From: a virus
DNA: 64,000 bases
Virus record (IMG/VR): IMGVR_UViG_3300034063_001054
Span: 62,001-126,000 of that record
Reading direction: 5' to 3' (one strand)
In this document: one piece after another, positions 15,921 to 64,000 of the stretch
Layout: every line of letters begins with the position of its first letter
Position numbering within the stretch: the stretch's first letter is position 1
Made by a program: the position numbers and the translations under genes
Notes under the pieces: generated by a model
Databases searched by the model: none
Told to the model about the DNA's origin: nothing
What the model saw: only the letters and a program-made list of their open reading frames with translations

Positions 15921-17444
15921 TTATCGTAATGATAGCTCAAATTTTAACGAACCACAATCCCAAATTCTATCATAACCTTTTAGTTTCATAATTTCCCACT
16001 CTGTCATATTTTTATCATAACCCTCCTTAACAAGTACATCCTTTCTAAACACAAATCTATGATGTCTATTTAGATATTTATCAGTTTTAATATACCAATA
16101 ATTTGGTGGTGTTTTTGATGTATATTGAAAACCATTTTTGTGATAAACTGTGTTGTTTGGATTAATACCCGACCATCTGATATCTGCAAAAGTTTCTATT
16201 TTATGTGGATTGATGTTATTGATAAAATATTTTAACAATTTAGAGAATCCTCCAACAATTGTAGTGAACTTTTTATTACTAAATCGGATTAATTCATATT
16301 CGTCAGAAATGATATCTTTATTACCTAACGATTTTCTTTTTTTTCCAAAAGTCATTACAGATACTAATTCATTTTCAAAAAAAAGACCATATCTAAATTT
16401 ATCAATAGTATAACCTTGTAAATGATTTTCATTCAAAAATTCCATAGATTGTTTTTTTGTGATTTCTTGAGCATTACATTTTCTACCATAAATTTTACTA
16501 TTTAAATTCAATTTACTCGATAACTTAGATAATACGATATCTGTTTTTAACATAATTTCATCTTCATAGAATTGAATCAAATTAATATTTTTATCATTCG
16601 AAAGAATCGTTTTGTCAATATGATATAATTTTGTCTTTTCTCCACTTATTTCAGAATGAAAATAATTACCATTTACCTCAATTCCAAGATTGAAATCGGG
16701 TAAAAAAATATCAATTTCTTTACCATTTAATATTTTTCTGTCGGCATCAATATGTTTTATATTATTCGTATTTAAAAAATCTTTAATTTTTTGTTCTAAG
16801 TTGGAATTTTTGGTAATTGGGTAACATTTTCTACAGATTGGTATTTTACCACTACCTAATAATGTACTACTAAAAATGTTTTCACATTTAGTACACTCGA
16901 AAGTATAAGATTGTGAGGTATTACCATTTTTATTTTGTTTATAATCATCTAATAACTTCAAATTTTGTTCATCTAATTTGGGGAGTAGTTTGTCTAAATG
17001 TTTTATTTTAATTGTGTTTTTTAATTTATCCACAAATTCTTGTAAATACATAGGACTCTTAACTCCATACTTCTCTATGAAAAGTTTATCTCTATTTTTT
17101 TTAAACTCATCTAATTTGAATAAAGAATCCTCACCATACTTTTCATATAACACTTGTTTCGACTTGTTAATTCTATTTTCTTTATTGACCTCTTTTTTAT
17201 TCCAAATTGTTCTACATTCATTGGAACAAAGTTTTCTTTCGTGTTTTTTTCTTTCTGTAAAACTATTACCACATTGGATACAAGTTCTGTTTTCCCTCAC
17301 GCTTTCATCTTTCTCCTTACCAAGTATCTTATTTTTTTTAGCATACTCAAAATAACAAGTTCTATCACAGAATTTTTTATCTCTATGTTTATAATCTGTA
17401 ACAAACATATTCGTACAATTCATACATTTTAATTCAATTTTCAT
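15921..17444 (-). CDS. Free-standing homing endonuclease, Vsr/PD-(D/E)XK-like, zinc-finger N-terminus
   Basis: A 507-aa protein from ATG 17444. The frame is open to TTG 17477, but the ATG fits better with the TATTTAT at 17485-17491. The N-terminus has two Cys4 knuckles (CMNC...CDRTC and CIQCGNSF...LCSNEC) and a third near residue 195 (CTKC...CRKC), the usual DNA-binding decorations. The nuclease core, around residues 240-300, reads EIDIFLPDFNLGIEVNGNYF with HSE, then LIQFYEDE, typical of Vsr-like homing endonucleases of phages. The C-terminal third (YGRKCNAQEI, GLFFENELVSVMTFGKKR, RWSGINP) matches the long domain that accompanies these nucleases. It is flanked by terminators at both ends and inserted between sheath and tube-side genes, the pattern of a selfish standalone unit. 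Confidence 0.8.
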   Translation of the reverse strand: MKIELKCMNCTNMFVTDYKHRDKKFCDRTCYFEYAKKNKILGKEKDESVRENRTCIQCGNSFTERKKHERKLCSNECRTIWNKKEVNKENRINKSKQVLYEKYGEDSLFKLDEFKKNRDKLFIEKYGVKSPMYLQEFVDKLKNTIKIKHLDKLLPKLDEQNLKLLDDYKQNKNGNTSQSYTFECTKCENIFSSTLLGSGKIPICRKCYPITKNSNLEQKIKDFLNTNNIKHIDADRKILNGKEIDIFLPDFNLGIEVNGNYFHSEISGEKTKLYHIDKTILSNDKNINLIQFYEDEIMLKTDIVLSKLSSKLNLNSKIYGRKCNAQEITKKQSMEFLNENHLQGYTIDKFRYGLFFENELVSVMTFGKKRKSLGNKDIISDEYELIRFSNKKFTTIVGGFSKLLKYFINNINPHKIETFADIRWSGINPNNTVYHKNGFQYTSKTPPNYWYIKTDKYLNRHHRFVFRKDVLVKEGYDKNMTEWEIMKLKGYDRIWDCGSLKFELSLR

Positions 17445-17484
17445 AGGTAAATTATTTTTTAATGTAACAAACACCAATCTACAT

Positions 17485-24804: not shown

Positions 24805-24815
24805 TATTTATGAGA

Positions 24816-24822
24816 TATTTAT
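24816..24822 (+). promoter_or_regulatory. TATTTAT element 5 nt before SOD-fusion start
   Basis: Two copies of the heptamer occur here (24805-24811 and 24816-24822). The second ends 5 nt before ATG 24828, which supports that ATG over the upstream one at 24810. Confidence 0.45.
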
Positions 24823-24827
24823 ATCTT

Positions 24828-27446
24828 ATGGAAAGAGCAGCAAATTTACTTAAAGAAATAATATTAACTAAAGAAGATATATTATCTGAAGCAAAAAAAA
24901 TTGGTATTGATAAATTACCATTTGGATATCGTTCAATTAGTAGTTTCATCGATGGAAAAACGATGGATATACATTACAACAAACATTATAAAGGTTATGT
25001 TGATAAATTGAATAAAGCCTTATCTAAAAAGAACTATGGTGATGTTGAATTGGAGAACATTATTAAATCCATTTCGAAGTATAATAAAACAATAAGGAAT
25101 AATGCTGGTGGTGCTTTTAATCATGCTTTATTTTGGAAAATGTTGTCCCCAAAAAAACAAGAAATACCAACTGAGATAAAAAACAAAATTATTAAAGATT
25201 TCGGTTCAATTAATACATTCAAAAAAGAATTCACCGAAATAGCAAAGGATAGATTTGGTTCAGGTTGGTGTTGGTTAATATTGACAAAAAACAACAGACT
25301 TAAAATTATGTCAACACCCAACCAAGACAATCCACTAATGAACATAGTTGATGGGGGTGGATTTCCTATTCTTGGTCTTGATGTATGGGAACACGCATAT
25401 TATCTCAAATATCAAAACAAAAGAGATGAATATATTGAAAATTTTTGGGATGTTGTCAATTGGGAGTTTGTTAATAAATTATATACAGATAAAAAGAAAA
25501 CTAAGTTAACTGAATCAGTTAAAACTAAAAAATTAATCAAAGAAGAAGTTGAGGTATTAAACCCAAACGGAAGACTAAATCCTATTTTTGTTCAAACAAT
25601 ATTGAAGAAAGTTTATCCAAAATGTTCTCCTGAAATTATTAGGGATTACAATCCTGATACTCGTATTGAATCACCTTGTTATGGTAAAATCCAAACTGAG
25701 TTATGTAAAACAAACTATGGTGTTATTGGTGGAAAATATGCTGTAAGTCAAAGGGGTGGAACTGGTGAATGGTCGGTTGTTAATTGGTTTGATGCTAACA
25801 CTCGAATTAGTGATAAGATATTAGAGTTTTATGAAAAATATAATAGTAAAAACTATGATTTGGAAACTTGGTTTAATATTATGGGAAAAACTCTGTTTGG
25901 TGATGAGGGAAAGTTTACCAATAGTTTGGCAAATATAGTTTTAAATCCAAAAACAAAAAAAGGAACTTTGGATAGAGGTATTGAAAGGGAAAAAATTGCG
26001 ATTGAAATATTCAACACTAAAAACAAAAATTCACAAATAACACAATTTTGTGATGGTGATACAAGGGACAAGTATAAAGGACAAGATATGTTTGTAACCG
26101 AAGATGGTGTAAGTAAATACGTTCAGGTTAAACCAACTACGGATTTATATGAAACGAGGGACAAACAAGGTAATACTATCTATATCTTCAAAAGTAAAAA
26201 TGTATATAATACAAATAATATTCAAATTTTTGCATTTGTTGATGATAAAAATAACTATATATTTTTTGATTTTAATGAGGTTGATATTGAGGATGGTGGA
26301 ACACAATCAAAAGAAAGATATTCTTACGTTTTTAATTCAAAAAATAAAAAATTCCAATCCCAATTTTTAAAATTAAAAAAAATTAACATTACTGAAAATA
26401 TGAACTCAACAATAATAATAACTAAAGAACAAGCTCAAATAATGAATTTTTTAATATCCGAGGACATTAAGATTAATAATAATCAGTTAGATATTAATAG
26501 TATCATTAAAAGAGAATTACAAAAGTTAAGACCTATTCCCACTGAAATGAATGCGGCTAAAGAAGCAATTAATAATATTGTAACAGCTGAAATAAGTCGT
26601 GGTAAGTTAAATTTTAGTAGAACAATTGATTCTTTATTTAATTTAAACTTATCAACAGTTTCGGACAGAAATAAATATAGGTTCAATAACTACTATTATA
26701 GATTTTATAGAAGTAGAACGAGAGGTTTAGATTTTGAAGGTTTAATTTCCGGTTTAATTGATGGAGATATTTCTGAAGACATTAATTCTCCATATGATTT
26801 GATTACAAAAGATGGAAAAAAAATATCTATAAAAATAGTAAGAAATTTAAGTGAAAGTCCTGTATTGAAATCAGCAAAAGGAAATATACAAAGTTTTATC
26901 GAGAATTATAATGGTTCTGATGAAAACAAACAAATGTTGATTACACAAGCAAAAAATGAAAATCTTCTAAGTTTTTTAATAAGTTCGGGTAACAACGATT
27001 ATATAAATATTGCTGAGGATTTAGTTGATTTCATACTACCTGACATTGATGGATTATTAATCGGTGTTCCCAACGAGAATTTTAACATCGACTTATTTTA
27101 TTTTGACAGAGAGGGAATTAAATCGTTGGCTTTAGAACCTGGTAATTTAGGTGCACCAAAAACCAAAGGGTCACAACAGATTAGATTCAAAAAATCAGTT
27201 TTCCAAAAAACACCAAGTGAAGGAAATAGATTGGTTGGAAAAATATATTTCCCAATAATCTCAGAACAAGAATATATTGATTTTTTAGTTGGTAATGAAA
27301 AAACAAAAGAAACATTATCATTACTTAATCGTTTTGGGAGTAAGTACAACATAAGAAACTTAGGTGGTAATATACCACAAGATATTATCCATAGTTTGTC
27401 TGACAACGAAAACTTCAAACAAGACATACTTAATTTGTTGGATTGA
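24828..27446 (+). CDS. Fe/Mn superoxide dismutase fused to nuclease-like C-terminal region
   Basis: An 872-aa protein from ATG 24828 (an ATG at 24810 would add 6 residues). Residues ~25-220 are a complete Fe/Mn-SOD: MDIHYNKHYKGYVDKLN (ligand H49), NNAGGAFNHALFW (ligand H99, with the AGG typical of Mn-type enzymes), GSGWCWL, NQDNPLM and GLDVWEHAYYLKYQN (ligands D185, H189). A linker leads to ~640 further residues. Around 380-440 lie GIEREKIAIEIF, KGQDMFV (D420) and VQVKP (Q433, K435), a D...QxK arrangement like Mrr/PD-(D/E)XK nucleases. The remainder is unrecognised; a second possible core is DFEGLISGLIDG...YDLITKDGKKISIKIV. The leader MERAANLLKEIILTKED resembles a T4 capsid-targeting peptide. 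SOD converts superoxide to peroxide and oxygen. A SOD-nuclease fusion is unknown to me. Confidence 0.85.
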   Translation: MERAANLLKEIILTKEDILSEAKKIGIDKLPFGYRSISSFIDGKTMDIHYNKHYKGYVDKLNKALSKKNYGDVELENIIKSISKYNKTIRNNAGGAFNHALFWKMLSPKKQEIPTEIKNKIIKDFGSINTFKKEFTEIAKDRFGSGWCWLILTKNNRLKIMSTPNQDNPLMNIVDGGGFPILGLDVWEHAYYLKYQNKRDEYIENFWDVVNWEFVNKLYTDKKKTKLTESVKTKKLIKEEVEVLNPNGRLNPIFVQTILKKVYPKCSPEIIRDYNPDTRIESPCYGKIQTELCKTNYGVIGGKYAVSQRGGTGEWSVVNWFDANTRISDKILEFYEKYNSKNYDLETWFNIMGKTLFGDEGKFTNSLANIVLNPKTKKGTLDRGIEREKIAIEIFNTKNKNSQITQFCDGDTRDKYKGQDMFVTEDGVSKYVQVKPTTDLYETRDKQGNTIYIFKSKNVYNTNNIQIFAFVDDKNNYIFFDFNEVDIEDGGTQSKERYSYVFNSKNKKFQSQFLKLKKINITENMNSTIIITKEQAQIMNFLISEDIKINNNQLDINSIIKRELQKLRPIPTEMNAAKEAINNIVTAEISRGKLNFSRTIDSLFNLNLSTVSDRNKYRFNNYYYRFYRSRTRGLDFEGLISGLIDGDISEDINSPYDLITKDGKKISIKIVRNLSESPVLKSAKGNIQSFIENYNGSDENKQMLITQAKNENLLSFLISSGNNDYINIAEDLVDFILPDIDGLLIGVPNENFNIDLFYFDREGIKSLALEPGNLGAPKTKGSQQIRFKKSVFQKTPSEGNRLVGKIYFPIISEQEYIDFLVGNEKTKETLSLLNRFGSKYNIRNLGGNIPQDIIHSLSDNENFKQDILNLLD

Positions 27447-54226: not shown

Positions 54227-55027
54227 ATGAACAAATTCAGAAAAGAATATTTCAATGACCATTATCACTTCATTATCGAAGGTGATGGGGAAAACTTTTC
54301 GTTGACCTATACAACCTACAATTTATTAACTGAAGACAAAAAACCAACTAAGAAAAAATTTAAAAAAGAAAACTTAAAAAATGTTGTCAGTAAAGTTGAA
54401 AAAATAACCAAATCAAGAAAAAAATATTCCAAAAAAGAAATAGATGAGTTGATTGACACTGATGGTACTTTTTTAAGTTCTAAGATTCCTTTTTTGAATC
54501 AGTATCTTACACCTAAAAAAACTATGGACCAAACAGTGGTTGCTGCAAGAATATCAAACGACCCAGTTACAAGAGGATATCGTGTTTATTATGGTGAAAG
54601 TGAAAATAAAGATGGTGAAGTTATTGACGAAGAAAATATGTCCGATGCTTTTGGATATGAAGAAACTAAAAATAAGGATTTCAAAGAAACACTTAAAACT
54701 TTTAAGAAGATGGGTGTGGAAGACCCTGAAGAAAGAATTCAAAGAACAAAACAACTAGGTAAAATTCCAAATGTAAAAAAAAGAAAAGGAAAATTAAAAC
54801 AAAGATTGACCGAAAAAGAAATTGAAGAAGAAAAGAAAAACAAAATGGTTAAAATGGTCGAAGATATTATAACTAATAAGTTGGGGGGTAGTGATGGTGA
54901 AGTTATTGAGAAAGTTGATAGTTTATCTAAAATTTTAATTAAGAACTTAGAAAGTATCAAAAAATTAGCAAAAAAAGAAGGTATAAGTTTGAATAAACTA
55001 ATTAATGTTTTGAAAAAAAGTGAATAA
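54227..55027 (+). CDS. Lysine-rich coiled-coil protein, unknown
   Basis: A 266-aa protein, very rich in Lys and Glu. N-terminal ~35 residues form a strand unit (HYHFIIEGDGENFSLTYTTY). The middle has DQTVVAARISNDPVTRGYRV and acidic loops; residues ~185-265 are a long helix (EKEIEEEKKNKMVKMVEDII, ending LAKKEGISLNKLINVLKKSE). It begins a plus-strand operon of five small proteins and overlaps the next start. Such Lys/Glu-rich helical proteins near head genes are often scaffold or internal core components, but no family was recognised. Confidence 0.55.
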   Translation: MNKFRKEYFNDHYHFIIEGDGENFSLTYTTYNLLTEDKKPTKKKFKKENLKNVVSKVEKITKSRKKYSKKEIDELIDTDGTFLSSKIPFLNQYLTPKKTMDQTVVAARISNDPVTRGYRVYYGESENKDGEVIDEENMSDAFGYEETKNKDFKETLKTFKKMGVEDPEERIQRTKQLGKIPNVKKRKGKLKQRLTEKEIEEEKKNKMVKMVEDIITNKLGGSDGEVIEKVDSLSKILIKNLESIKKLAKKEGISLNKLINVLKKSE

Positions 55028-55490
55028 AGATTTATACGGCAAAAAAATAGAATTACCTGAAGACGTTATTGTTTATCTTAAACAATGTAATGATAATGCT
55101 ATTGGTGCCGATGAAAGTACAGAAGGATTTAGAAGAAATAGAGAACTCAGAGATACCGGATTTGTAACATATCAACAACTCAAAAGAATGAAGAACTTCT
55201 TTGATAATTTTAACGGACATCAGAATGATTTACCTTTTATTTTAAATGGTGGTCACTATGTTAAAGGTTGGGTAAATAATATGTTGAAATCGATGAGAGA
55301 TGATATTTCATTAGGAAAAGAAATAAAATCAGTTGTTTTACCAAATCAATACATACAACCACATCAAAAAAATAATCTCACAACAACTAATAGACCAAGT
55401 AAAAGTCATTCAAATACCTTGGAAAAATATAATTTACAAGTAACTGAAGACCTTAAAAGGATAAATGATTTAATAAAAAAATTAATTTAA
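55020..55490 (+). CDS. Unknown protein of the small-protein operon
   Basis: A 156-aa protein from GTG 55020, overlapping the upstream stop by 8 nt, a translational-coupling arrangement that supports the GTG start. It reads MNKDLYGKKIELPEDVIVYL, with GADESTEGFRRNRELRDTGF, then VTYQQLKRMKNFFDNFNGHQ and GGHYVKGWVNNMLKSMRDDI. It is helical with a conserved-looking middle. It looks like phage proteins found beside head genes, but I cannot name the family. The tail is basic and ends in a helix (LKRINDLIKKLI). Confidence 0.55.
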   Translation: MNKDLYGKKIELPEDVIVYLKQCNDNAIGADESTEGFRRNRELRDTGFVTYQQLKRMKNFFDNFNGHQNDLPFILNGGHYVKGWVNNMLKSMRDDISLGKEIKSVVLPNQYIQPHQKNNLTTTNRPSKSHSNTLEKYNLQVTEDLKRINDLIKKLI

Positions 55491-55491
55491 T

Positions 55492-55785
55492 ATGGCTCAA
55501 GTAGAACCTTTAAGTTTTGCACAACCTGATAATGAGTTGTCAAGAATCGCTGAAGCTGAAAGAAAAAAACTTTTTCCCAAAAATGATTATGCAACGAATA
55601 ATCAATATTCTTCAGTTAATCCAAATGCTTTATCTGATGGTGACGAAAAAGGTAGAGGTACTGGTAATTTCTTAGATGTTTATAATCAAAACATTGGAAC
55701 TCGTACTGACATTGTTGAAAGAAAAAATGAAATCAAAGTGAACGAGTATCAAGTAAACAAACCTTATACAACTCCACCAGCGTAA
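55492..55785 (+). CDS. Small virion-type protein, unknown
   Basis: A 97-aa hydrophilic protein, MAQVEPLSFAQPDNELSRIA, with an Asn/Ser/Gly-rich middle and a Tyr-Gln-Val-Asn-Lys-Pro end. It is likely disordered. It starts 1 nt after the previous stop and its stop overlaps the next ATG (TAATG), so it is part of a coupled operon. No motif allows a function call. Confidence 0.5.
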   Translation: MAQVEPLSFAQPDNELSRIAEAERKKLFPKNDYATNNQYSSVNPNALSDGDEKGRGTGNFLDVYNQNIGTRTDIVERKNEIKVNEYQVNKPYTTPPA

Positions 55786-56168
55786 TGAAACTTTACAACA
55801 TAACCAAAAATCTTATTTTAGAAGTAGCTTCTATCGAATCCGTAATTAACTCAATTAGAAATAAAAATAGAGTTATTATTTATTATGATGGAGAAGAACC
55901 AGGTGGACGTGGTTTAAGAGAAATCGAACCCGTATGTTTTGGTTATTCAAAAAAAGGTAATCCAGTTCTTAGAGCTTGGGATTTGGAGGGAGCTTCCCAT
56001 AGAGGATTCAAAGGAGAAAAACCACTACCAAGTTGGCGACTTTTTAGATTGGATAGGATTATGTCATTAACACCAACAGGAAATAATTTTGAAACTCCTA
56101 GACCCAACTATAATCCAAGTGGAGACAAATCTATGAATAGAGTTATAATAAATGCCAAATTTGATTAA
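55785..56168 (+). CDS. WYL-domain protein with leader peptide
   Basis: A 127-aa protein. Residues ~20-100 match a WYL domain: NKNRVIIYYDGEEPGGRGLR, the 'r.IeP' strand (EIEPVCFGYSKKGNPVLRAW) and WRLFRLDRIMSLTPTG, where the last Arg-Leu-Asp-Arg-Ile is typical of the family. WYL domains bind nucleic acids or nucleotide ligands and control defence and repair regulators; here the domain stands alone without a DNA-binding HTH. The leader MKLYNITKNLILEVASIE carries an I-L-E, compatible with T4-type capsid targeting and cleavage. It overlaps the stop of the upstream gene. It may be an injected modulator of host regulation (inference). Confidence 0.75.
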   Translation: MKLYNITKNLILEVASIESVINSIRNKNRVIIYYDGEEPGGRGLREIEPVCFGYSKKGNPVLRAWDLEGASHRGFKGEKPLPSWRLFRLDRIMSLTPTGNNFETPRPNYNPSGDKSMNRVIINAKFD

Positions 56169-56177
56169 AAATATTAT

Positions 56178-56783
56178 ATGAACGAAAATGATTTAATGAA
56201 CAAATTAGCTATATCTAAAAAGATTATGGAACGTCATAATCAGACCCCTAGAAATACAAATGGTGGGGGTAATATGAATTTTGATACTAATGTAAGAGAA
56301 TTTGACGTACCACAAGCTAAATTCAACATACCTCAGGAATTTATGGGTGTTAATGAATCTAAACAACAAATACCACAACACACAAATACAAAGGATAGAA
56401 TTCTATCATCTAAATTACCTGATGAAATTAAAAGATTAATGATTGAACATCCAATCAATCAACCAAACAATATGGGTGGTGGGGGTTCAGTTTTAAGTAA
56501 TGAATTGGTTGAAAAAGCAGCAAGATTAATGAACAATGACATTGCTAATAATGTTAATCCATACCAACCAAAAAAAGTTGTACAAGAAACGAAATCACAG
56601 AATGTAACATCCAACTTGGATAAAAATGTTCTAAAAGATTTAATTAGAGAAACTATCGAAGAAGTGTTAGGTGAAAATGGTCTGTTAGTTGAAAGTACAA
56701 ATAAAACAAATGATATGTTCCAATTTAAAGTTGGAAGTCACATTTTCGAAGGAAAAGTAACACGTATTAAAAAAGTTAAATAA
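56178..56783 (+). CDS. Unknown hydrophilic protein, head-core-like
   Basis: A 201-aa protein, MNENDLMNKLAISKKIMERH. Its first half is Asn/Gln-rich and probably disordered. Residues ~150-200 hold a helix LKDLIRETIEEVLGENGLLV and then a strand pair ending FKVGSHIFEGKVTRIKKVK. The 'F.v....i.eGkv.rikk' end recurs in proteins beside head genes of T4-like marine phages, as I recall, but a family name is uncertain. It is the last gene of the operon and is followed by a strong terminator. Confidence 0.5.
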   Translation: MNENDLMNKLAISKKIMERHNQTPRNTNGGGNMNFDTNVREFDVPQAKFNIPQEFMGVNESKQQIPQHTNTKDRILSSKLPDEIKRLMIEHPINQPNNMGGGGSVLSNELVEKAARLMNNDIANNVNPYQPKKVVQETKSQNVTSNLDKNVLKDLIRETIEEVLGENGLLVESTNKTNDMFQFKVGSHIFEGKVTRIKKVK

Positions 56784-56807
56784 TTTATTTTTTTCATAAT
56801 TCTTATT

Positions 56808-56853
56808 CCCCACATCCCCTGAAGAAATTCAAGTTGTGGGGTTTCGTTTTTTT
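56808..56853 (+). terminator. Terminator after small-protein operon
   Basis: CCCCACA and TGTGGGG form the outer stem, with an inner TGAA-GAAA-TTCA hairpin, followed by TTTCGTTTTTTT. Confidence 0.8.
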
Positions 56854-56887
56854 AGAGGGTAATACTTTCCTTTTGACATAACGTTTA

Positions 56888-56894
56888 TATTTAT
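56888..56894 (+). promoter_or_regulatory. TATTTAT element before second homing endonuclease
   Basis: The heptamer lies 21 nt before ATG 56916 and downstream of a terminator, so it should start the plus-strand operon that runs to the window end. Confidence 0.45.
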
Positions 56895-56915
56895 ATAATA
56901 TAAAATATATTGATT

Positions 56916-57674
56916 ATGGACATTGAAACTGAAAAATTTATAATAGAGGAATATAAAAAAGGGTTGGGTTCTGTAATGATTTCACGTAAAGTGGGGTTAT
57001 CTAAACCTACGATATTAGCTGTAATAAAAAAACACAAACTAACGAGGTATAAAGATAGATGTAAATGTTTAAAAATAAAAGAAGTTGGTGACAAATTTAC
57101 ATTATCATGGACGTGTAAGATGTGTAAAAACGAATTCCAAAAAACCTCGAAAAATAAATCCGTATTGTGTCGTAATTATTACAACTCAATAAAAAAAAGT
57201 AGTAATTGTAAATCTTGTAGTTTATTATTACAGAGAGGTAAAGGAAATCCTTTTTATGGGAAAAAACATAGTAAACAAACACTCGATTTAATTTCCAAAA
57301 AAATATCTGAAAATCCACCAAAACAAAGTTGTGTGTCTAAATTGGAAAAAAAATTGTTGAGTGAAATTAAAAATAGGGGAATAGATGCTAAAGGAACTGT
57401 GTCTATTGATAGATTTATATGTGATATTTTTATTGAAAAATACAATTTAATTATTGAATTTTATGGTGATTATTGGCATTGTAATCCCAAAAAATATAAA
57501 TCTGATTATTTTCACCCGCACAAAAAAAAGACAGCAAAAGAAATATGGGACGAGGATAAACTAAGAATTGATTATTTGAAAAAAATGGGTTATAATTTAG
57601 AAGTTATCTGGGAACGTGAATTCTCAGATGATAAAAAATTAAACAAAATTATTAAAAAATATGTCAAAAATTAG
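56916..57674 (+). CDS. Free-standing homing endonuclease with HTH, NUMOD3 and Vsr-like nuclease
   Basis: A 252-aa protein from ATG 56916; a TTG at 56910 would add two residues. Residues ~5-45 are a helix-turn-helix (YKKGLGSVMISRKVGLSKPT). Two Cys pairs follow (CKMC; CKSC). GNPFYGKKHSKQTLDLISKK is a NUMOD3 motif, a common DNA-binding piece of homing nucleases. The nuclease core is FICDIFIEKYNLIIEFYGDY followed by WHCNP and IWDEDKLRIDYLKKMGYNLE, the Vsr-like PD-(D/E)XK pattern. It sits between a terminator and the GT4 gene and its 3' end overlaps that gene by 14 nt. It is the second of three endonucleases here. Confidence 0.82.
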   Translation: MDIETEKFIIEEYKKGLGSVMISRKVGLSKPTILAVIKKHKLTRYKDRCKCLKIKEVGDKFTLSWTCKMCKNEFQKTSKNKSVLCRNYYNSIKKSSNCKSCSLLLQRGKGNPFYGKKHSKQTLDLISKKISENPPKQSCVSKLEKKLLSEIKNRGIDAKGTVSIDRFICDIFIEKYNLIIEFYGDYWHCNPKKYKSDYFHPHKKKTAKEIWDEDKLRIDYLKKMGYNLEVIWEREFSDDKKLNKIIKKYVKN

Positions 57675-58875
57675 AGTTCTAGTAACCCCCTCAGACACGA
57701 CCGGAGTTGGAAAATTCAGAAGTGTAGACCCCCATGTAATGTTACAAAATATGTATCCAGATGACTTCCACGTGGATATTGATTATCAACCTAGAATTAA
57801 TGATGTAAATTATTGGAAACAATATCAAATTGTTCATATACATAGGAATATTGGTAATAGTTACGAACATACACCAAGTATTATTAATTTTTTGAAATCA
57901 ATAGGTATTGTTGTTATTGTAGATTTGGATGATTATTGGTTACCAGGAAAGGAGCACCCAATTCATACATTGATTGTACAAGACAAAATCCATGAGAAAA
58001 TTATGGCAAATTTAAAAGTTGCAAGTTATGTTACTACAACTACAAATATCTTTGCTGATGAAATCAAAAAATTAAATAGAAATGTTGTCATTTTCCCAAA
58101 TGCAATCGACCCAACTGAAAGTCAATTTAAACAACCTACTGAGAAATCAGATAGAATAAGAATTGGTTGGTTAGGTGGTTCATCTCACTTACATGACTTG
58201 AAATTGTTAGAGGGATTTGTCTCAAAGAATATATCTTTGAAGGATAAGGTACAATATGTGTTGTGTGGTTTTGATACAAGAGGTACAATTACTGAAATAA
58301 ACCAACAAACAGGTGAAAAGAAACAAAGACCAATCAACCCTGACGAAACAGTTTGGGCGAGATATGAAGAAATTTTCACGAATAAATATGGTACAATTGA
58401 TGATAACTACAAACAATTTTTACTTCAGTTTAAAGAAGAAGAATACCCAAATATAAGTGATTTACCATATAGACGAGTTTGGACTAAACCAATCAATACT
58501 TATGCAACTAACTATTCAAAGTTTGATATATCAATGGCACCAATCAAAAACCATATATTCAATAGAGTAAAATCTCAACTGAAAGTTATTGAGGCTGGTT
58601 TTTATAAAAAAGCATTAATTGCATCTGAAGTAGGACCTTATACAATTGACCTCAAACACGCTTTAAGTTTTGGTAATTTTACTGATGGAAATGCTTTGTT
58701 AGTTAAGGAAGAAAGAAATCATAGTGATTGGGCAAAAAATATTAAATTTCTTGTAAATAATCCGAATTTAATCGTAGATTTGGGTGAGAGATTATATGAG
58801 TCAGTCAAAGACAAATATGATTTAAGAAATGTTACAAGAGATAGAGCTCAATGGTACAAATCACTAATTAAATAA
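57661..58875 (+). CDS. GT4-type glycosyltransferase
   Basis: A 404-aa protein. The start IRVLVTPSDTTGVGKFRSVD and IVHIHRNIGNSYEHTPSIIN, then VIVDLDDYWLPGKEHP, fit the first Rossmann lobe of a GT-B fold enzyme; the second lobe begins RIRIGWLGGSSHLHDLKLLE and ends KFDISMAPIKNHIFNRVKSQ, KVIEAGFYKKALIASEVGPY, the usual donor-binding E-x7-E-like region of GT4/group 1 transferases. It probably uses a nucleotide sugar to modify virion or host glycans. It starts within the endonuclease gene's last codons and is followed by the exonuclease after 6 nt. Confidence 0.82.
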   Translation: MSKIRVLVTPSDTTGVGKFRSVDPHVMLQNMYPDDFHVDIDYQPRINDVNYWKQYQIVHIHRNIGNSYEHTPSIINFLKSIGIVVIVDLDDYWLPGKEHPIHTLIVQDKIHEKIMANLKVASYVTTTTNIFADEIKKLNRNVVIFPNAIDPTESQFKQPTEKSDRIRIGWLGGSSHLHDLKLLEGFVSKNISLKDKVQYVLCGFDTRGTITEINQQTGEKKQRPINPDETVWARYEEIFTNKYGTIDDNYKQFLLQFKEEEYPNISDLPYRRVWTKPINTYATNYSKFDISMAPIKNHIFNRVKSQLKVIEAGFYKKALIASEVGPYTIDLKHALSFGNFTDGNALLVKEERNHSDWAKNIKFLVNNPNLIVDLGERLYESVKDKYDLRNVTRDRAQWYKSLIK

Positions 58876-58881
58876 AAATAT

Positions 58882-59595
58882 ATGTTAATCAAACAACCAA
58901 TTACTAAGATTTTATTTATGGACATTGAAACAGTTGGGGGTTGTCCCAACTATGATGTGTGTTCTAATTTAAACCCATCTGTGGCTGACCAATTTGACAA
59001 ATATTTTGATTGGTTCTTGAAAAGGTTTCCTGAAGATAACGAAATTAAAGAAGACCAAAAAAATATTGTATTTTCAAGTAGAGCTGGTTTAGTTCCTGAA
59101 TTTGCAAAAATTATTTGTGTTAGTTTTGCATTTGTTTTAGATGATGGGTCTGTTAGAAAACAAACATTTTCAAATGATAATGAACATCAATTGTTGAAAG
59201 ATGTTCAAGGTTTATTAAACAAATGTGCAAAGTTAGATTTTTGGTTGTGTGGACATAATTTGAAAAACTTTGATATCCCAATGTTGGCAAAACGTATGAT
59301 TATTAATGGATTGATGCCTCCGGCACTTCTTCCATCATATGATACAAAACCTTGGGAAATCAAAGCAATTGATACCAAAGAAATTTGGCAATATGGGGCA
59401 TATTCTTCAATTGGGTCACTCGATTTATTATGTTCTACTATGGATATACCAACTCCAAAGGATGGTGAGGTAAAAGGTGATAAAGTTCACTCAGAATATT
59501 GGGAAAAACAAAACATCAAGGGTATTAGTGAATATTGTGAAAAAGATGTTGATGTCTTAATTCAAATAATTAAAAAGTTAAAAGAACTCAGATAA
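58882..59595 (+). CDS. DnaQ/PolB-exo2-like 3'-5' exonuclease
   Basis: A 237-aa protein. Exo I is ILFMDIETVGG (D14, E16), exo II is CGHNLKNFDIPMLAKRM (N and D present), and exo III is EYCEKDVDVLIQII with the second Asp. The order and spacing match the PolB-like exonuclease (PF10108) family. It probably trims or proofreads DNA in replication or recombination. Its stop overlaps the dUTPase N-half start (TAATG), so nucleotide-pool and DNA-processing genes are coupled here. Confidence 0.88.
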   Translation: MLIKQPITKILFMDIETVGGCPNYDVCSNLNPSVADQFDKYFDWFLKRFPEDNEIKEDQKNIVFSSRAGLVPEFAKIICVSFAFVLDDGSVRKQTFSNDNEHQLLKDVQGLLNKCAKLDFWLCGHNLKNFDIPMLAKRMIINGLMPPALLPSYDTKPWEIKAIDTKEIWQYGAYSSIGSLDLLCSTMDIPTPKDGEVKGDKVHSEYWEKQNIKGISEYCEKDVDVLIQIIKKLKELR

Positions 59596-60272
59596 TGCAA
59601 GGAAATATGAAAGATTTGTTTAAACAAGTCGATGATTTACAAAATTATTTAAAAGGAAAGGAAGATGAAATAGATTACAATATTATCTATGAAACTTATG
59701 GAGTTGACATTAAACAACTAGAACAAGAAATGTTGAATTATGTCCCCAAACAAATACTTGGTTACACTAAACTTAATCCCGATGCTATTGACCCTAGTTA
59801 CAATTATATAAGTGACTCAGGCTTTGACTTGTACTCAACAGAAGAAATTGTTGTAAACCCATTAGGTAGAGCTTTAATACCAACAGGATTGGCCTTTGAC
59901 ATCAAAGATGGTTATGAAATACAAGTAAGGTCAAAAAGTGGTTTAGCAATAAATCAGGGTTTATTTGTATTAAATTCACCAGGAACTGTGGATTGTTTTT
60001 CTGAAGATATGAAAATTTTAACTATAAATGGTGAAAAACATATTAAGGATTTAAAAATAAATGATATAGTATTTTCATTCAATGAAAAAAGTTTAGAAAT
60101 TGAAAAAGATATTGTTCTTAAAATTTTTGACACTAATGTACAAGATATATTGAAAATTGAGACTGAAGAAGGTGTACTTGAGGTAACCCCCAATTCAGAA
60201 ATTTATACAAATAAAGGGATTGTTTTGGCCAAAGATTTACAAGAAAATGATGAGATAATTGTATTTTTTTAA
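59595..60272 (+). CDS. dut: dUTPase N-half fused to split-intein N-part (IntN)
   Basis: A 225-aa protein. Residues 1-133 are the N-extein: a ~60-residue extension, then dUTPase motif I DSGFDLYSTEE, the LIPTGLAF strand, motif II VRSKSGLA, and the first part of motif III, GTVD. The Asp of GTVD is the family's catalytic residue. Cys134 then begins an intein: block A CFSEDMKILTINGEKHIKD, and block B-like LEVTPNSEIYTNKG, ending IIVFF with TAA at 60270-60272. IntN is 92 residues. The block B His of TxxH is replaced by Ser (TPNS), which is unusual. No endonuclease domain is in it. The rest of the protein is encoded at 61180-61482. Without trans-splicing this half lacks motifs IV and V and must be inactive. 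Confidence 0.9.
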   Translation: MQGNMKDLFKQVDDLQNYLKGKEDEIDYNIIYETYGVDIKQLEQEMLNYVPKQILGYTKLNPDAIDPSYNYISDSGFDLYSTEEIVVNPLGRALIPTGLAFDIKDGYEIQVRSKSGLAINQGLFVLNSPGTVDCFSEDMKILTINGEKHIKDLKINDIVFSFNEKSLEIEKDIVLKIFDTNVQDILKIETEEGVLEVTPNSEIYTNKGIVLAKDLQENDEIIVFF

Positions 60273-60281
60273 CCAAGATAC

Positions 60282-60288
60282 TATTTAT
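60282..60288 (+). promoter_or_regulatory. TATTTAT element inside the fractured dUTPase locus
   Basis: The heptamer lies 17 nt before the ATG of the endonuclease gene and 10 nt past the IntN stop. It suggests that the homing nuclease is transcribed by its own signal. Confidence 0.45.
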
Positions 60289-60305
60289 CAATAAAGATAA
60301 TAAGT

Positions 60306-61199
60306 ATGTCAGTAAAATGTAAAATTTGTGGGATTGAAAAACAATATTCAATTGTTGAACATTTAAAATTTGAACATAAATTAACCTCAAAAGAATACAA
60401 AGAGTTATATCCAGGTAATTTAGTTAAATCAAAAGAATATGCAACAATATTTTCAGAGAAACAAAAAACTAAATGGAGTGATACTGAATATAAACAAAAA
60501 ATGACAAAATCTAGACAAGTATCCCATAATAAATCTGAATTCAAAAATAAAATGTCTAATATTATAAAAAAGAGACATAAAGAAACACCCGAAATCTATT
60601 CAGGTTTTACCAATTGGCATAAAAGTGAAAAATTTAAAGAGTGGGTCAAATCTGAAGATAGAATAAAAAAAATATCAAAAACATCAAAAGAAAGATGGGA
60701 AAATGAGGAGTATAGACAAAAAACAATCAAATCAATCGTAAAAGTGTTGGGTGATGGTAGATGTGAAAAAGGAAAAGAGTTTAGGGAAAATATGTCAAAA
60801 ATTATTTCTGAATTATATAGTACAGGTAAATTAAGTAATACAAGTAACAAATATAAAACAGGAAAATATGAATCAAAGGAAAATGAAACCTTTTTATATT
60901 CATCCTCATATGAATTGGAAACTATGATTTTTTTTGACTCAGTTAATTTTATAAAAAGATGGACGAACAAACATGGTATTCGAATAAGATATTTTTATAA
61001 TGGACTACACAGAAACTATGTTCCTGATTTTTACATTGAATTAGCCAATGGTAAAATCTTTTTAATTGAACTAAAGGGGTGGGAAACTGAGGAAGTATTA
61101 GTAAAACAACAATTTGCATTAAAAGAATACCCAAACTATAAATTGTTTTACTCAGTTGAAGAACTAAAAAATTTTATATATGAAAACAACGAAGATTAA
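60306..61199 (+). CDS. Homing endonuclease, PD-(D/E)XK, between split-intein halves
   Basis: A 297-aa protein. It starts with a zinc-finger-like VKCKICGIEKQYSIVEHLKF followed by EHKLTSKEYKELYPG, a common phage homing nuclease header. Residues ~50-165 hold several basic repeat helices of the KWSDTEYKQKMTKSRQ and RWENEEYRQKTIKSI kind, NUMOD-like DNA-recognition units. The catalytic core is NYVPDFYIE (D241), IFLIELKGWE (E255, K257), a full PD-(D/E)XK set. It lies exactly between the two halves of the dUTPase split intein, in its own frame; its last 20 nt overlap the start of the C-half gene, allowing coupling. It would cut intein-less dut alleles and spread the element. This is the 'fractured gene' form described for phage metagenomes by Dassa and colleagues. 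Confidence 0.88.
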   Translation: MSVKCKICGIEKQYSIVEHLKFEHKLTSKEYKELYPGNLVKSKEYATIFSEKQKTKWSDTEYKQKMTKSRQVSHNKSEFKNKMSNIIKKRHKETPEIYSGFTNWHKSEKFKEWVKSEDRIKKISKTSKERWENEEYRQKTIKSIVKVLGDGRCEKGKEFRENMSKIISELYSTGKLSNTSNKYKTGKYESKENETFLYSSSYELETMIFFDSVNFIKRWTNKHGIRIRYFYNGLHRNYVPDFYIELANGKIFLIELKGWETEEVLVKQQFALKEYPNYKLFYSVEELKNFIYENNED

Positions 61200-61482
61200 A
61201 AAAATAACATCAGAAAAAAAACAAACTTATGATATAACAGTAAGTAATAATCATAACTTCTTTTGTAATAGTCATTTGATACATAATTGCGGTTATTTGG
61301 GTGAAGTAAAAGTTATAATTTTTAATACGAATTCAGACCAAGTAACAATAAAAAAAGGAATGAAAATTGCACAAGCAGTTTTATGTCCAGTAATAAACGG
61401 AAAATATGTTGATTTGGAACTAAAGAAAGATTTAGGTCAAAAAGACAGAGGTGATAACGGATTTGGCTCAACAGGAATATGA
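61180..61482 (+). CDS. dut: Split-intein C-part (IntC) fused to dUTPase C-half
   Basis: A 100-aa protein from ATG 61180. Residues 1-36 are IntC: block F KQTYDITVSNNHNFFCNSH and block G HLIHN, with penultimate His35 and terminal Asn36. Cys37 is the +1 residue. Residues 37-100 complete the dUTPase: CGYLGEVKVIIF (rest of motif III), KKGMKIAQAVLCPV (motif IV) and RGDNGFGSTGI (motif V, the Arg-Gly...Gly-Phe-Gly-Ser-Thr-Gly that closes on dUTP). After splicing, 133 + 64 gives a 197-aa dUTPase with the join GTVD-CGYLGE. dUTPases normally have a Ser, Asp or similar after the Asp. It overlaps the endonuclease gene by 20 nt and the next gene by 4 nt (ATGA). Confidence 0.9.
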   Translation: MKTTKIKKITSEKKQTYDITVSNNHNFFCNSHLIHNCGYLGEVKVIIFNTNSDQVTIKKGMKIAQAVLCPVINGKYVDLELKKDLGQKDRGDNGFGSTGI

Positions 61483-63380
61483 TTACTATAATATATTGTA
61501 CAAGAACTTCAAATGAAGAACATAAAAAACATTTAATTAAAACTTCTGGTTTACATAACAAGTTGGAAGTTATTGAAATCGTTAATAATGGTGAATCTCT
61601 AACCTCGGCATATAATAGAGGTTTATCACAAGCCTCAAATAGTATAGTTGTTTTCTGTCATGATGATTTGACTATTGAAACTAATCAATGGGGTAACAAA
61701 CTACTCAAAATTTTTGATAGAAATTTAGATTATGGAGTAGTTGGTGTTGCGGGTACAAAGTTTTTGTCCACATCGGGTAGATGGTGGGAAGATATGAAAA
61801 AAATGTATGGAAAAGTAGCACATACACATAATGGTAAAACTTGGTTATCATCATATTCACAAGATTTGGGGAGTAATTTAGAGGAAGTTGTTGTTGTTGA
61901 TGGATTGTTTTTTGCTATTGACAAAAATAGAATAAAAAAAACATTCAATGAAGAGTTTCAAGGATTTCATTTTTATGATGTATCTTTTTGTTTTGATAAC
62001 TACTTGTCGGGTGTTAAAATAGGTGTAACAACAGAGATTAGAATTAATCATAAGTCGATTGGGATGACTAATTCTAAATGGGAGGAAAACAGAATTAAAT
62101 TCACATCAAAATATGAAGATAATTTACCTGTATTCTTAAATAGAAAAATACACCCCAACGAGAAATTAAAAATATTAATTTCAACCACTAATTTTAATGG
62201 GGAATCAAATAAAGAAAAATTCATTTTCGAATTTGTGAAGTCACTTAAAAACAAAGGTCATCATTTGTACATATGTTCAAATTTGGGAAATAGAATAACA
62301 AGTTTAGCTAAAAGAGAAGGAATAAATTTAAGTTCCATAAATGAACCTTTCGGTTATAAATTAGGTGATGGTAAATGGCAAATTAACACACCAAATGGTC
62401 TTCAACCAACACAAATAAATCAGTTGTATAAAATAAAAGAAATTGATTTTGATGTAATTCAACTTTTCGATGATGAATTAACTGATTTTATTCAAAAGTG
62501 TTACCCAACAACACCAATTGAAAATTTTGAGTCGATTGGTAATGATAGTTTTTTATTTGACTTGAACTGGTTTCGTAATTTGAATAACATAGATAACATA
62601 ATTGAAAAATATAAAAACAATATAACCCAACAAGTTTCTGAACAATTTAAACAAGAGAACTATCAAAAGAGTTTGAAATTTTTAACAGAAAAATACGTTA
62701 AAAATTTAGGTCCTCTAGTTAGTATCATTATCCCTTGTTTTAACGATGGTCAATATTTACCTGAGGCAATAAAATCGGCTAAAGATTTAACATACTCAAA
62801 TAAAGAAATTATCGTTATTAATGATGGGTCGAGTGATACAAAAACTTTGGAAATATTAAATAATTTAGATAGTGATATTAAAGTTTTACATCACGAAAGA
62901 AATAAAGGACTTTCTGCAGCAAGAAATACAGCTATTAAATCCTCACAAGGATATTATATATTACCACACGATGTTGATGATACATTTGATAAAAACTATT
63001 TGTTATTTGCAATTTATGAAGCTGAGAAGAATGAGAATTTGAGTCCAATATATTGTGATACAAATCATATTGGTTTTATACAAGGTATGGAAAAAAGACC
63101 TGAATGGTCATTGAGTAGATTAAAAAGAGGGCCTTTTATTGTAAGTTGTTCTTTGTTCAGAAAAAAAGCTTGGGACGATGTGTTAGGTTATGATGAATCT
63201 ATGAAAGGGTGGGAGGATTATGATTTTTGGTGGAGAATAGGAAATAATGGGTATAAGGGAGTTAGAATACCTCTACCATTATTTAACTATAGACACATTA
63301 GACCAAGTATGATTCAAAACATCAAAAATGACGAAAGAAAATTATACGATTATATTATGAATAAACCTCTATCAAAATGA
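61479..63380 (+). CDS. Multidomain glycosyltransferase (two GT2-like domains)
   Basis: A 633-aa protein. Residues ~1-215 resemble a GT2-like transferase (MITIIYCTRTSNEEHKKHLI; SIVVFCHDDLTIETNQWG with HDD box; FHFYDVSFCFDNYLSGVKIG). A middle region (~225-400; LKILISTTNFNGESNKEKFI) looks like a degraded GT4-type lobe. Residues ~405-633 are a canonical GT2: GPLVSIIIPCFNDGQYLPEA, INDGSSDTKTLEIL, GLSAARNTAIKSS, LPHDVDDTFDKNY (DxD) and the closing MKGWEDYDFWWRIG. It overlaps the dUTPase C-half gene by 4 nt and the next gene by 4 nt. It probably builds a multi-sugar glycan. Confidence 0.85.
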   Translation: MITIIYCTRTSNEEHKKHLIKTSGLHNKLEVIEIVNNGESLTSAYNRGLSQASNSIVVFCHDDLTIETNQWGNKLLKIFDRNLDYGVVGVAGTKFLSTSGRWWEDMKKMYGKVAHTHNGKTWLSSYSQDLGSNLEEVVVVDGLFFAIDKNRIKKTFNEEFQGFHFYDVSFCFDNYLSGVKIGVTTEIRINHKSIGMTNSKWEENRIKFTSKYEDNLPVFLNRKIHPNEKLKILISTTNFNGESNKEKFIFEFVKSLKNKGHHLYICSNLGNRITSLAKREGINLSSINEPFGYKLGDGKWQINTPNGLQPTQINQLYKIKEIDFDVIQLFDDELTDFIQKCYPTTPIENFESIGNDSFLFDLNWFRNLNNIDNIIEKYKNNITQQVSEQFKQENYQKSLKFLTEKYVKNLGPLVSIIIPCFNDGQYLPEAIKSAKDLTYSNKEIIVINDGSSDTKTLEILNNLDSDIKVLHHERNKGLSAARNTAIKSSQGYYILPHDVDDTFDKNYLLFAIYEAEKNENLSPIYCDTNHIGFIQGMEKRPEWSLSRLKRGPFIVSCSLFRKKAWDDVLGYDESMKGWEDYDFWWRIGNNGYKGVRIPLPLFNYRHIRPSMIQNIKNDERKLYDYIMNKPLSK

Positions 63381-64000
63381 TGAAAACTTGTTGTATTTTA
63401 TATCACTCAAATATATTTTCAATCTACAAAAAAGAGTGGATTCAAAAGTGTTTAGATACAATTTTAAACCAAACTTATACTAATTTTGATATTTTTGAAT
63501 TGAATTATGGTGACGATAGTTCAAATTTGAAAGAAATATTTACTATCAATAAAAAACATTTTTTTTTCAAAGTTAAGATGAACAATCATGCCGAAGCAAT
63601 GAATTTTCTTCTTGACTTAGTGTTCAAAGAAGAAAACTATGATATTTGTTTTAATATAAATTTAGATGATTTTTATACTCTAAATAGATTTCAACAACAA
63701 ATTGACATTTTAAATGGAGATATTGATATAGTTTCCTCAGAATATGTTTTTACAAAAGAAACAAATGGGATTTATAGTTTTAGTGCCCCAGTTGGTTTAG
63801 GAAATCACGATTTAGAAACTTTATTTAATATGGATATCACACCATTAGCTCACCCTTGTGTTGCATATACCAAAAAGTTTTGGTTAGAATTCGGTCCTTA
63901 TATACCTCAAGAAATACCAAGAGAAGATAAAAATCTTTGGATTAGAAGTTACAGAAATGGTGCTAAATTACATATTATAAAAGAACCTTTGCTATTTTAT
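63377..64000 (+). CDS. GT2-like glycosyltransferase, cut by right edge
   Basis: ATG 63377, overlapping the upstream stop (ATGA), then open through the edge for 208 codons without a stop. It begins MMKTCCILYHSNIFSIYKKE, continues WIQKCLDTILNQTYTNFDIF (GT2 'sl.sil.Qty.n.e' pattern), FNINLDDFYTLNRFQQQI (DD box) and CVAYTKKFWLEFGPYIPQ with PREDKNLWIRSYRNGAKL. This is a GT-A transferase without its C-terminus in view. It is the third transferase of this operon. Confidence 0.8.
   Translation, partial: MMKTCCILYHSNIFSIYKKEWIQKCLDTILNQTYTNFDIFELNYGDDSSNLKEIFTINKKHFFFKVKMNNHAEAMNFLLDLVFKEENYDICFNINLDDFYTLNRFQQQIDILNGDIDIVSSEYVFTKETNGIYSFSAPVGLGNHDLETLFNMDITPLAHPCVAYTKKFWLEFGPYIPQEIPREDKNLWIRSYRNGAKLHIIKEPLLFY

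Follow-up and report, generated by a model that had tools for sequence, protein, structure and literature searches.

A probable mobile fractured-gene element with a split intein and a homing-endonuclease-like gene in the dUTPase gene of metagenomic phages

Fractured genes with split inteins were reportedly described by Dassa et al. in 2009 from metagenomic phages: the host gene is said to be broken at one site, its halves carrying the N-terminal (IntN) and C-terminal (IntC) parts of an intein in separate open reading frames (ORFs), with an endonuclease ORF in the gap; NrdJ-1 is said to belong to the set, and the nucleases to a Vsr-like family. A locus of this layout is found in the dut gene, coding for dUTPase, the enzyme that keeps uracil out of DNA, at positions 59595–61482 of the DNA analysed here (the window, a stretch of 64,000 nucleotides comprising positions 62,001 to 126,000 of the 194,498-bp IMG/VR virus record IMGVR_UViG_3300034063_001054). 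Very probably it is a mobile fractured-gene element, in which the dUTPase halves would be joined by trans-splicing, a homing nuclease would be controlled by an RNA hairpin and a promoter, and the nuclease would later be lost. With the 2009 set it reportedly shares the one-site break, the IntN and IntC ORFs, the endonuclease ORF in the gap and the occurrence in metagenomic phages, and the best single-sequence match of its intein among PDB sequences is NrdJ-1. It differs from that set in the host gene, in a TnsA-like zinc-finger nuclease, in the lack of the block-B histidine and in the presence of derivatives deleted for the homing-endonuclease-like gene (HEG).

No dUTPase intein was described in the literature searched, a partial search that did not cover the founding fractured-gene paper, and dUTPase is therefore only provisionally a host gene not reported before. 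Another fractured gene of nucleotide metabolism with a putative homing endonuclease between its halves is AceL NrdHF, possibly from a phage contig, but it codes for a ribonucleotide reductase and comprises a class 3 intein and a GIY-YIG nuclease (PMC7891396); since its nuclease is of the GIY-YIG type, the type of endonuclease is not a defining feature of fractured genes. Among isolates, the closest locus found is that of uvsW in Salmonella phage S16 (HQ331142, L248, gp114/gp114.1/gp115, positions 1814–4540; L-numbers are labels of the contigs and loci compared), apparently a fractured gene whose gap holds a TnsA-like ORF. The IntN of its UvsW N-half is 35% identical to that of the window (E 2e-9), the C-half begins with an IntC ending in AHN/C (the slash marks the splice junction), and the middle ORF matches TnsA-like and NUMOD3 models weakly, in either case slightly below the Pfam cut-off; in the record of this cultured phage the annotation of the parts goes no further than helicase and hypothetical protein. 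S16 differs in the host gene and in the presence of the block-B His (VTGNHKF), and its middle ORF has no detectable relation to the window nuclease (BLASTP E 1.2). Matches similar to those of S16 are found in other Salmonella and Proteus phages.

The dut locus consists of three ORFs on the (+) strand. ORF 1 (59595–60272, 225 amino acids) codes for dUTPase residues 1–133 (59595..59993), i.e., an N-terminal extension, motifs I and II and the start of motif III up to the catalytic Asp (GTVD), followed by the 92-residue IntN (59994..60272 with the stop codon; CFSEDMKILT...VFF). The HEG (60306..61199) codes for 297 amino acids and overlaps by 20 nucleotides ORF 3 (61180–61482, 100 amino acids), which starts with the 36-residue IntC (61180..61287; YDITVSNNHNFFCNSHLIHN, ending in IHN), its start codon lying within the 3' end of the HEG, and continues with 64 residues of dUTPase (61288..61482 with the stop codon), comprising the +1 Cys, the remainder of motif III (CGYLGE...) and motifs IV and V. 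Joined, the exteins give 197 residues and the intein parts 128. The original prediction, made from the sequence, that dUTPase is split over two genes, that the break lies inside motif III right after the catalytic Asp and that all motifs are complete once the halves are joined is borne out by the comparison with protein families: PF00692, the Pfam dUTPase family, matches ORF 1 at profile positions 4–63 of 129 (E 1.9e-6) and ORF 3 at positions 71–129 of 129 (E 3.1e-12), and TIGR00576 matches both halves, each under its whole-protein cut-off. In the joined halves one finds what we take to be, by name and place, motifs I (SDSGFDLYS), II (RSKSG), III (GTVD/CGYLGE), IV (GMKIAQ) and V (RGDNGFGSTG), so that, judged by sequence, they would make a trimeric dUTPase of the PF00692 type; no other dUTPase match is found in the 194-kb record. 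The structural model of the N-half aligns with human dUTPase over residues 53–118 (VIA-align: Z 6.3, root-mean-square deviation (rmsd) 1.9, 66 aligned).

The reading of the 92- and 36-residue parts as a split intein, with an IntC ending in His-Asn before Cys (IHN/CGYLGE), was also proposed at the outset, and the intein models, the inteins of the PDB and the family profile all speak for it. The Pfam and TIGR models match modestly: PT-HINT (E 8e-5) and Intein_splicing (E 5.7e-5) both stay under the Pfam cut-offs and TIGR01445 intein_Nterm under its own (17.7 bits, cut-off 24.5), with TIGR01443 intein_Cterm above it (19.1 bits, cut-off 15.6); the sole Intein_splicing match in the whole record ends at the IntC of dut. 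Among PDB sequences the joined intein matches NrdJ-1 (E 9e-9), Spl DnaX (1e-8) and gp41-1 (2e-4), and a profile of 13 family members matches 44 distinct sequences at E <= 0.01 (best 3e-16, Spl DnaX), all of which can be read as inteins or Hint-type domains, some of them labelled by the host protein only. The N-half model (predicted local distance difference test (pLDDT) score 68.5) resembles isolated Npu DnaE IntN chains (Foldseek E 1.7e-3, TMt 0.55–0.56). In the family described below all 19 aligned N-halves have Asp-1 and Cys1, and in all 18 aligned C-halves the intein ends in Asn; 25 of 26 rows, and L180 too, have Cys at +1, L139 having Ser. Across deep divergence the two parts keep Cys1, the block YD(I/L)T...N(H/S)NFFCN, the terminal Asn and the +1 Cys or Ser, and the junctions are those of class 1 inteins (Cys or Ser at 1, terminal Asn or Gln, Cys, Ser or Thr at +1). 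In 22 rows, considered by themselves, the net charge is -3 to -14 in IntN and +1 to +6 in IntC.

The His of the block-B (N3) TxxH motif is replaced by Ser or Thr in 23 of 23 rows, representing 21 distinct IntN sequences (L119 counted as a cut-off copy of L120), at the position aligned to TPDH of NrdJ-1; in the window it is Ser (VTPNSEIY). No column of a 13-row IntN alignment holds His in at least three rows, and 10 of the 21 distinct sequences have no His at all. Because of this family-wide replacement, the intein is labelled class-1-like, its sequence deviating from that of ordinary class 1 inteins at the residue which these conserve best. An Asp at -1 in ordinary inteins tends to favour premature cleavage at the N-terminal junction; loss of the block-B His might restrain such cleavage at Asp-1, or it might be compensated by this Asp. 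That the first splicing step proceeds without a conserved IntN His, the catalytic Asp at -1 or another conserved intein residue substituting for the block-B His, is a tentative idea to which we give about one chance in four. If it were true, the intein would be chemically matched to the active site that it interrupts, which would explain its occurrence only in dut and only at the catalytic Asp. Inteins of the Tko CDC21-1 type are archaeal. They are natural inteins that likewise lack the block-B His, with Leu at -1, while the dut intein is split, phage-borne and preceded by Asp; the block-B His is called the most conserved intein residue in the same source (PMC6333167).

The nuclease gene predicted to fill the break is of the PD-(D/E)XK type. 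C5, C8, H19 and H24 of a C2H2 zinc finger, as well as E203, P240, D241, E255 and K257 of the PD-(D/E)XK core (E203, P240-D241, E255-x-K257), are shared by 17 of 17 aligned members. The best match of the structural model (pLDDT 82.5) is TnsA of Tn7 (Foldseek E 4.5e-4; VIA-align: Z 9.0, rmsd 3.7, 127 aligned), followed by VRR_NUC (Z 8.0) and then by archaeal resolvases; the matches cover only about residues 159–297. The protein is probably a TnsA-like PD-(D/E)XK nuclease with a zinc finger, and its capacity for DNA cleavage is predicted from these residues and this fold. Its profile gave no meaningful match among PDB sequences, and scans for relatives of the nuclease in genes other than dut, each with a single protein as query (two distant members of the family), found only the queries themselves. 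Second, weaker nuclease-like matches with 29–34% identity, possibly free-standing relatives, lie near the fractured dut in L095 (3105–3365), L128 (7052–7300) and L136 (9559–9873). A search of the phage collection with the nuclease gave 5 records, with distant relatives in Bacillus phages SP-15 (25.5% identity) and Moonbeam. The SP-15 relative (L246, 1935–4452) is situated within the gene for the major capsid protein, which is annotated as a join of two pieces, and no Rfam family reaches its gathering score in this capsid region. The annotated join would suit an element acting at the RNA level, a group I or II intron or a translational bypass, in place of a split intein. For dut we give such an element only a very slight chance: no Rfam match up to E 1 is found in window positions 55001–64000, and each half-ORF has a conserved intein fragment at the protein level with its own stop or start codon.

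The TATTTAT element ascribed to the nuclease gene is present at 60282..60288, its first base 24 nucleotides before the HEG start. This heptamer occurs within 60 nucleotides of 16 of the 46 gene starts of the window (the starts picked by hand), as against a mean of 2.3 and a maximum of 7 in 500 runs with shuffled upstream stretches, and 18–25 nucleotides ahead of the start in 9 of the 16 genes. It looks like the phage's own promoter motif, and the copy before the nuclease gene may be a late promoter; it is exact in 12 of 16 nuclease leaders compared and also in L180. In 14 of 15 leaders the RNA between the IntN stop and the nuclease start is predicted to form a hairpin that covers the ribosome-binding region or the start codon, or the two together (z -2.5 to -5.3), with TATTTAT in its 5' arm in most of them; in the window it extends over 60272..60313, spans the HEG start codon and has the promoter-like element in the 5' arm (z -4.2). 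L011 and L122 were left out of the folding (in L122 the stretch up to the HEG start, the IntN stop codon counted in, is only 8 nucleotides long), and the divergent leaders L128, L136 and L139 make the hairpin from other sequences. A similar arrangement is described for I-TevI of the T4 td intron, where RNA structure hides the ribosome-binding site on long transcripts and the late-promoter transcript lacks the full structure, and concealed-start devices of this kind for I-TevII, I-TevIII, SegB and MobE as well (PMC2988022). I-TevI differs in being a GIY-YIG nuclease of a group I intron and in that its device was shown experimentally, the dut one being a prediction.

The locus has relatives in many contigs. 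When the viral collection was scanned with profiles, the C-half brought out 51 contigs (54 loci minus three polymerase inteins) and the N-half two more, i.e., 53 besides the window record. In all of them the element lies in dut and, wherever the N-half is present, follows the Asp of G-[T/I/V]-[V/I]-D; divergent relatives retain the order of the parts. The relatives were tabulated as 26 row groups, reduced to 22 by counting L025, L092, L112 and L119 as cut-off copies and raised to 23 by L180. One C-half profile scan of GTDB genomes gave 151 pattern matches and no relative, and no intein-bearing dUTPase was found in 50,697 phage records. The three polymerase inteins, L199–L201, lie in proteins that by eye are DNA polymerase I-like and are unrelated; L240–L242 turned out to be unbroken dUTPases. 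Weak IntN matches upstream of unbroken dut in L032, L040, L041, L058, L066 and L133 were dismissed as chance, those in L032, L040, L058 and L066 because they fall inside an ORF resembling by eye a glycosyltransferase-like ORF of the window (57661–58875). An assembly artefact joining unrelated contigs might be suspected, as the record is metagenomic and contigs, not reads, were compared, but its probability is vanishingly small: the proteins of all three ORFs are 100% identical in nine contigs from nine IMG data sets (L001–L009), and the divergent family has the same order of parts.

Related phages with an unbroken dut, a check suggested along with the original prediction, are represented by 68 loci, some of them pairs from one contig. 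The residue following the site is Asn in 45, Ser in 12, Gln in 8, Glu in 2, Phe in 1 and Cys in none, and therefore the splicing nucleophile would arrive with the element, at a position where dUTPase appears to tolerate many residues. With complementary IntN and IntC ORFs, an endonuclease ORF between them and unbroken homologues at the site, the locus has, in its sequence, the structure of a fractured gene with a split intein. L014 (broken) and L078 (unbroken) are syntenic, with 83–90% identity of the DNA on the two sides (87% and 83% in flanks of up to 3 kb each). At dut they differ in that an insertion immediately follows the GAT codon in L014 and AAT is replaced by TGT; by coordinates the insertion is 1294 bp long in both the window and L014. 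In 12 pairs chosen by us for the comparison of non-synonymous and synonymous differences per site (pN and pS), the cassette (IntN–nuclease–IntC) is clearly closer than both exteins (DutN and DutC) at synonymous sites in six. In L012/L027 pS is 0.73 for DutN and 0.70 for DutC against 0.43 for IntN and 0.39 for the HEG, the amino acid identity being 57% for DutN and 86% for the HEG; in L026/L095 it is 0.72 and 0.60 for the exteins against 0.31 and 0.29 (HEG) for the cassette, and in L001/L010 0.67 and 0.72 against 0.49 and 0.52. The remaining pairs with a clear excess are L001/L011, L012/L019 and L019/L027.

The trees conflict as well: a clade of L021 and L027 is rejected by the cassette data (p 1e-78) and a clade of L012, L019 and L027 by the extein data (p 6e-6), the extein data being uninformative on L001 with L010 (p 0.46). 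These groups were picked after the pairwise identities had been seen, which makes the p-values optimistic, and the conflict is still large. The extein tree of 58 rows (19 broken, 39 unbroken) requires eight changes of state, at least four of them forced by starred branches, gains and losses being inseparable on it. Left out of it were L011 with its damaged C-half, L103, L107, L112, L119, L092 and L235, which are cut by contig ends, L110, a near-copy of L108 with its start cut, and L025, a copy of L021; L019 was kept despite an early stop. The conflict between the trees of cassette and exteins, the intermingling of broken and unbroken dut and the insertion that separates two syntenic phages show that the cassette moves laterally, independently of its host gene.

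Decay and loss of the nuclease can be followed within the family. The L111 nuclease has two frameshifts, the second of which is also present in the independent contig L112 and the first in L111 alone. In L108–L110 and L119–L121 only about 65 bp separate the IntN stop from the IntC start and some 812 bp present in L111 are gone; the gap and the end of IntN correspond to the last three dozen or so nuclease codons, out of frame with IntN. This tail bears the sequence just upstream of the IntC start, which may be the reason for its retention. Between L108 and L120 IntN differs by 15 synonymous and three non-synonymous changes and IntC by two and none, indicating that the split intein is still under purifying selection after nuclease loss, which would be difficult to understand if dUTPase were not spliced by it. 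These data bear on the possibility that a nuclease insertion merely left the gene in pieces, the dUTPase halves cooperating unspliced and the intein parts being vestigial. A phage ribonucleotide reductase split by a HEG is a precedent (Friedrich 2007, as mentioned in PMC10448857), and the family-wide loss of the block-B His would agree with it. Against it stand the persistence of purifying selection on IntN and IntC in the nuclease-less lineage, the retention of their hallmark residues over deep divergence and the position of the break inside the active-site motif III, and we consider it improbable.

The mobile split-intein element that we favour would function as follows, splicing, cleavage and the roles of the hairpin and the promoter being inferred from sequence. 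The half-proteins would be made separately, and the acidic IntN would pair with the basic IntC and fold as a Hint domain; trans-splicing would free the 128-residue intein and yield the 197-residue dUTPase, in which the catalytic Asp133 is linked to Cys134. In a co-infecting phage whose dut is free of the intein, this gene would be cut by the nuclease at the conserved sequence of motif III, and repair would copy the whole 1.3-kb cassette, the +1 Cys codon included, into the cut site. On the long dut transcript the hairpin would conceal the nuclease start, while a transcript begun at TATTTAT would lack the 5' arm, so that the nuclease would be made only from that, probably late, promoter. Once targets were exhausted the nuclease would decay and be lost, and the split intein would stay because dUTPase needs it.

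Several observations weigh against this explanation. The intein lacks the block-B His of class 1, so that its motifs do not by themselves warrant the assumption of splicing; the penultimate His is missing from L139 and the block-F His from L180. The N-half model is weak: Foldseek finds inteins and dUTPases, none at E <= 0.001, and VIA-align mostly dUTPases, with 5bkh the sole intein among 50 rows (Z 5.8, rmsd 1.4, 52 aligned). The L137 leader does not fold into the hairpin, and covariation, counted on the 12 close leaders, is slight (one of ten pairs, a score reached by 38 of 500 shuffles), the variation being too little for proof. The excess similarity of the cassette is partial in L010/L011, L020/L097 and L021/L020 and not clear in L021/L027, L001/L012 and L001/L021. 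On the extein tree broken rows group with broken and unbroken with unbroken more than by chance, the eight changes comparing with a mean of 16.3 for shuffled labels and none of 500 shuffles being as low; the broken state is therefore also inherited, and movement is not rapid enough to erase descent. Finally, the dUTPase C-half is damaged in L011 (internal deletion) and L019 (early stop), which are either assembly faults or non-functional copies. Such damage, together with the deviation from the usual block-B splicing motif, would be expected if the locus were a decaying dut pseudogene in phages living without a dUTPase of their own. This is highly improbable, as pN is below pS for every part in all 12 pairs, mostly far below (the closest being DutC of L010 against damaged L011, 0.35 to 0.42), and also in the HEG-less lineage, motifs I–V are intact in the window and no second dUTPase match that could serve as a replacement is found in the record.

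Apart from this locus, the record encodes a contractile-tail sheath and a DNA polymerase of family B. Another putative homing endonuclease, different from that of dut, is encoded at 56910–57674 (+), with a NUMOD3 match above and an MTES_1575 REase-like match below the cut-off; TATTTAT lies 22 nucleotides upstream of it, and downstream it adjoins the weakly glycosyltransferase-like ORF. Between the tail sheath gene and a 293-residue ORF, a 518-residue ORF with a TTG start (15921–17477, (-)) has a DUF7487 match and a weak Mom-like match. At 24810–27446 (+) an 878-residue phage protein has N-terminal Fe/Mn superoxide dismutase domains, followed by some 600 further residues with no Pfam match at E <= 0.001.

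The dut locus extends the fractured genes to dUTPase, with a break beside a catalytic residue. The family offers an unusually complete natural series for one element, from the unbroken gene through intact and frameshifted nucleases to a deleted nuclease with the intein still selected, and therefore the homing cycle of a split intein is directly testable. A split-intein family without the block-B His provides a way to probe the first acyl shift and possibly new ligation tools, and the TnsA-like nuclease with its I-TevI-like leader suggests that the intein elements of phages share a timing trick of their intron elements.

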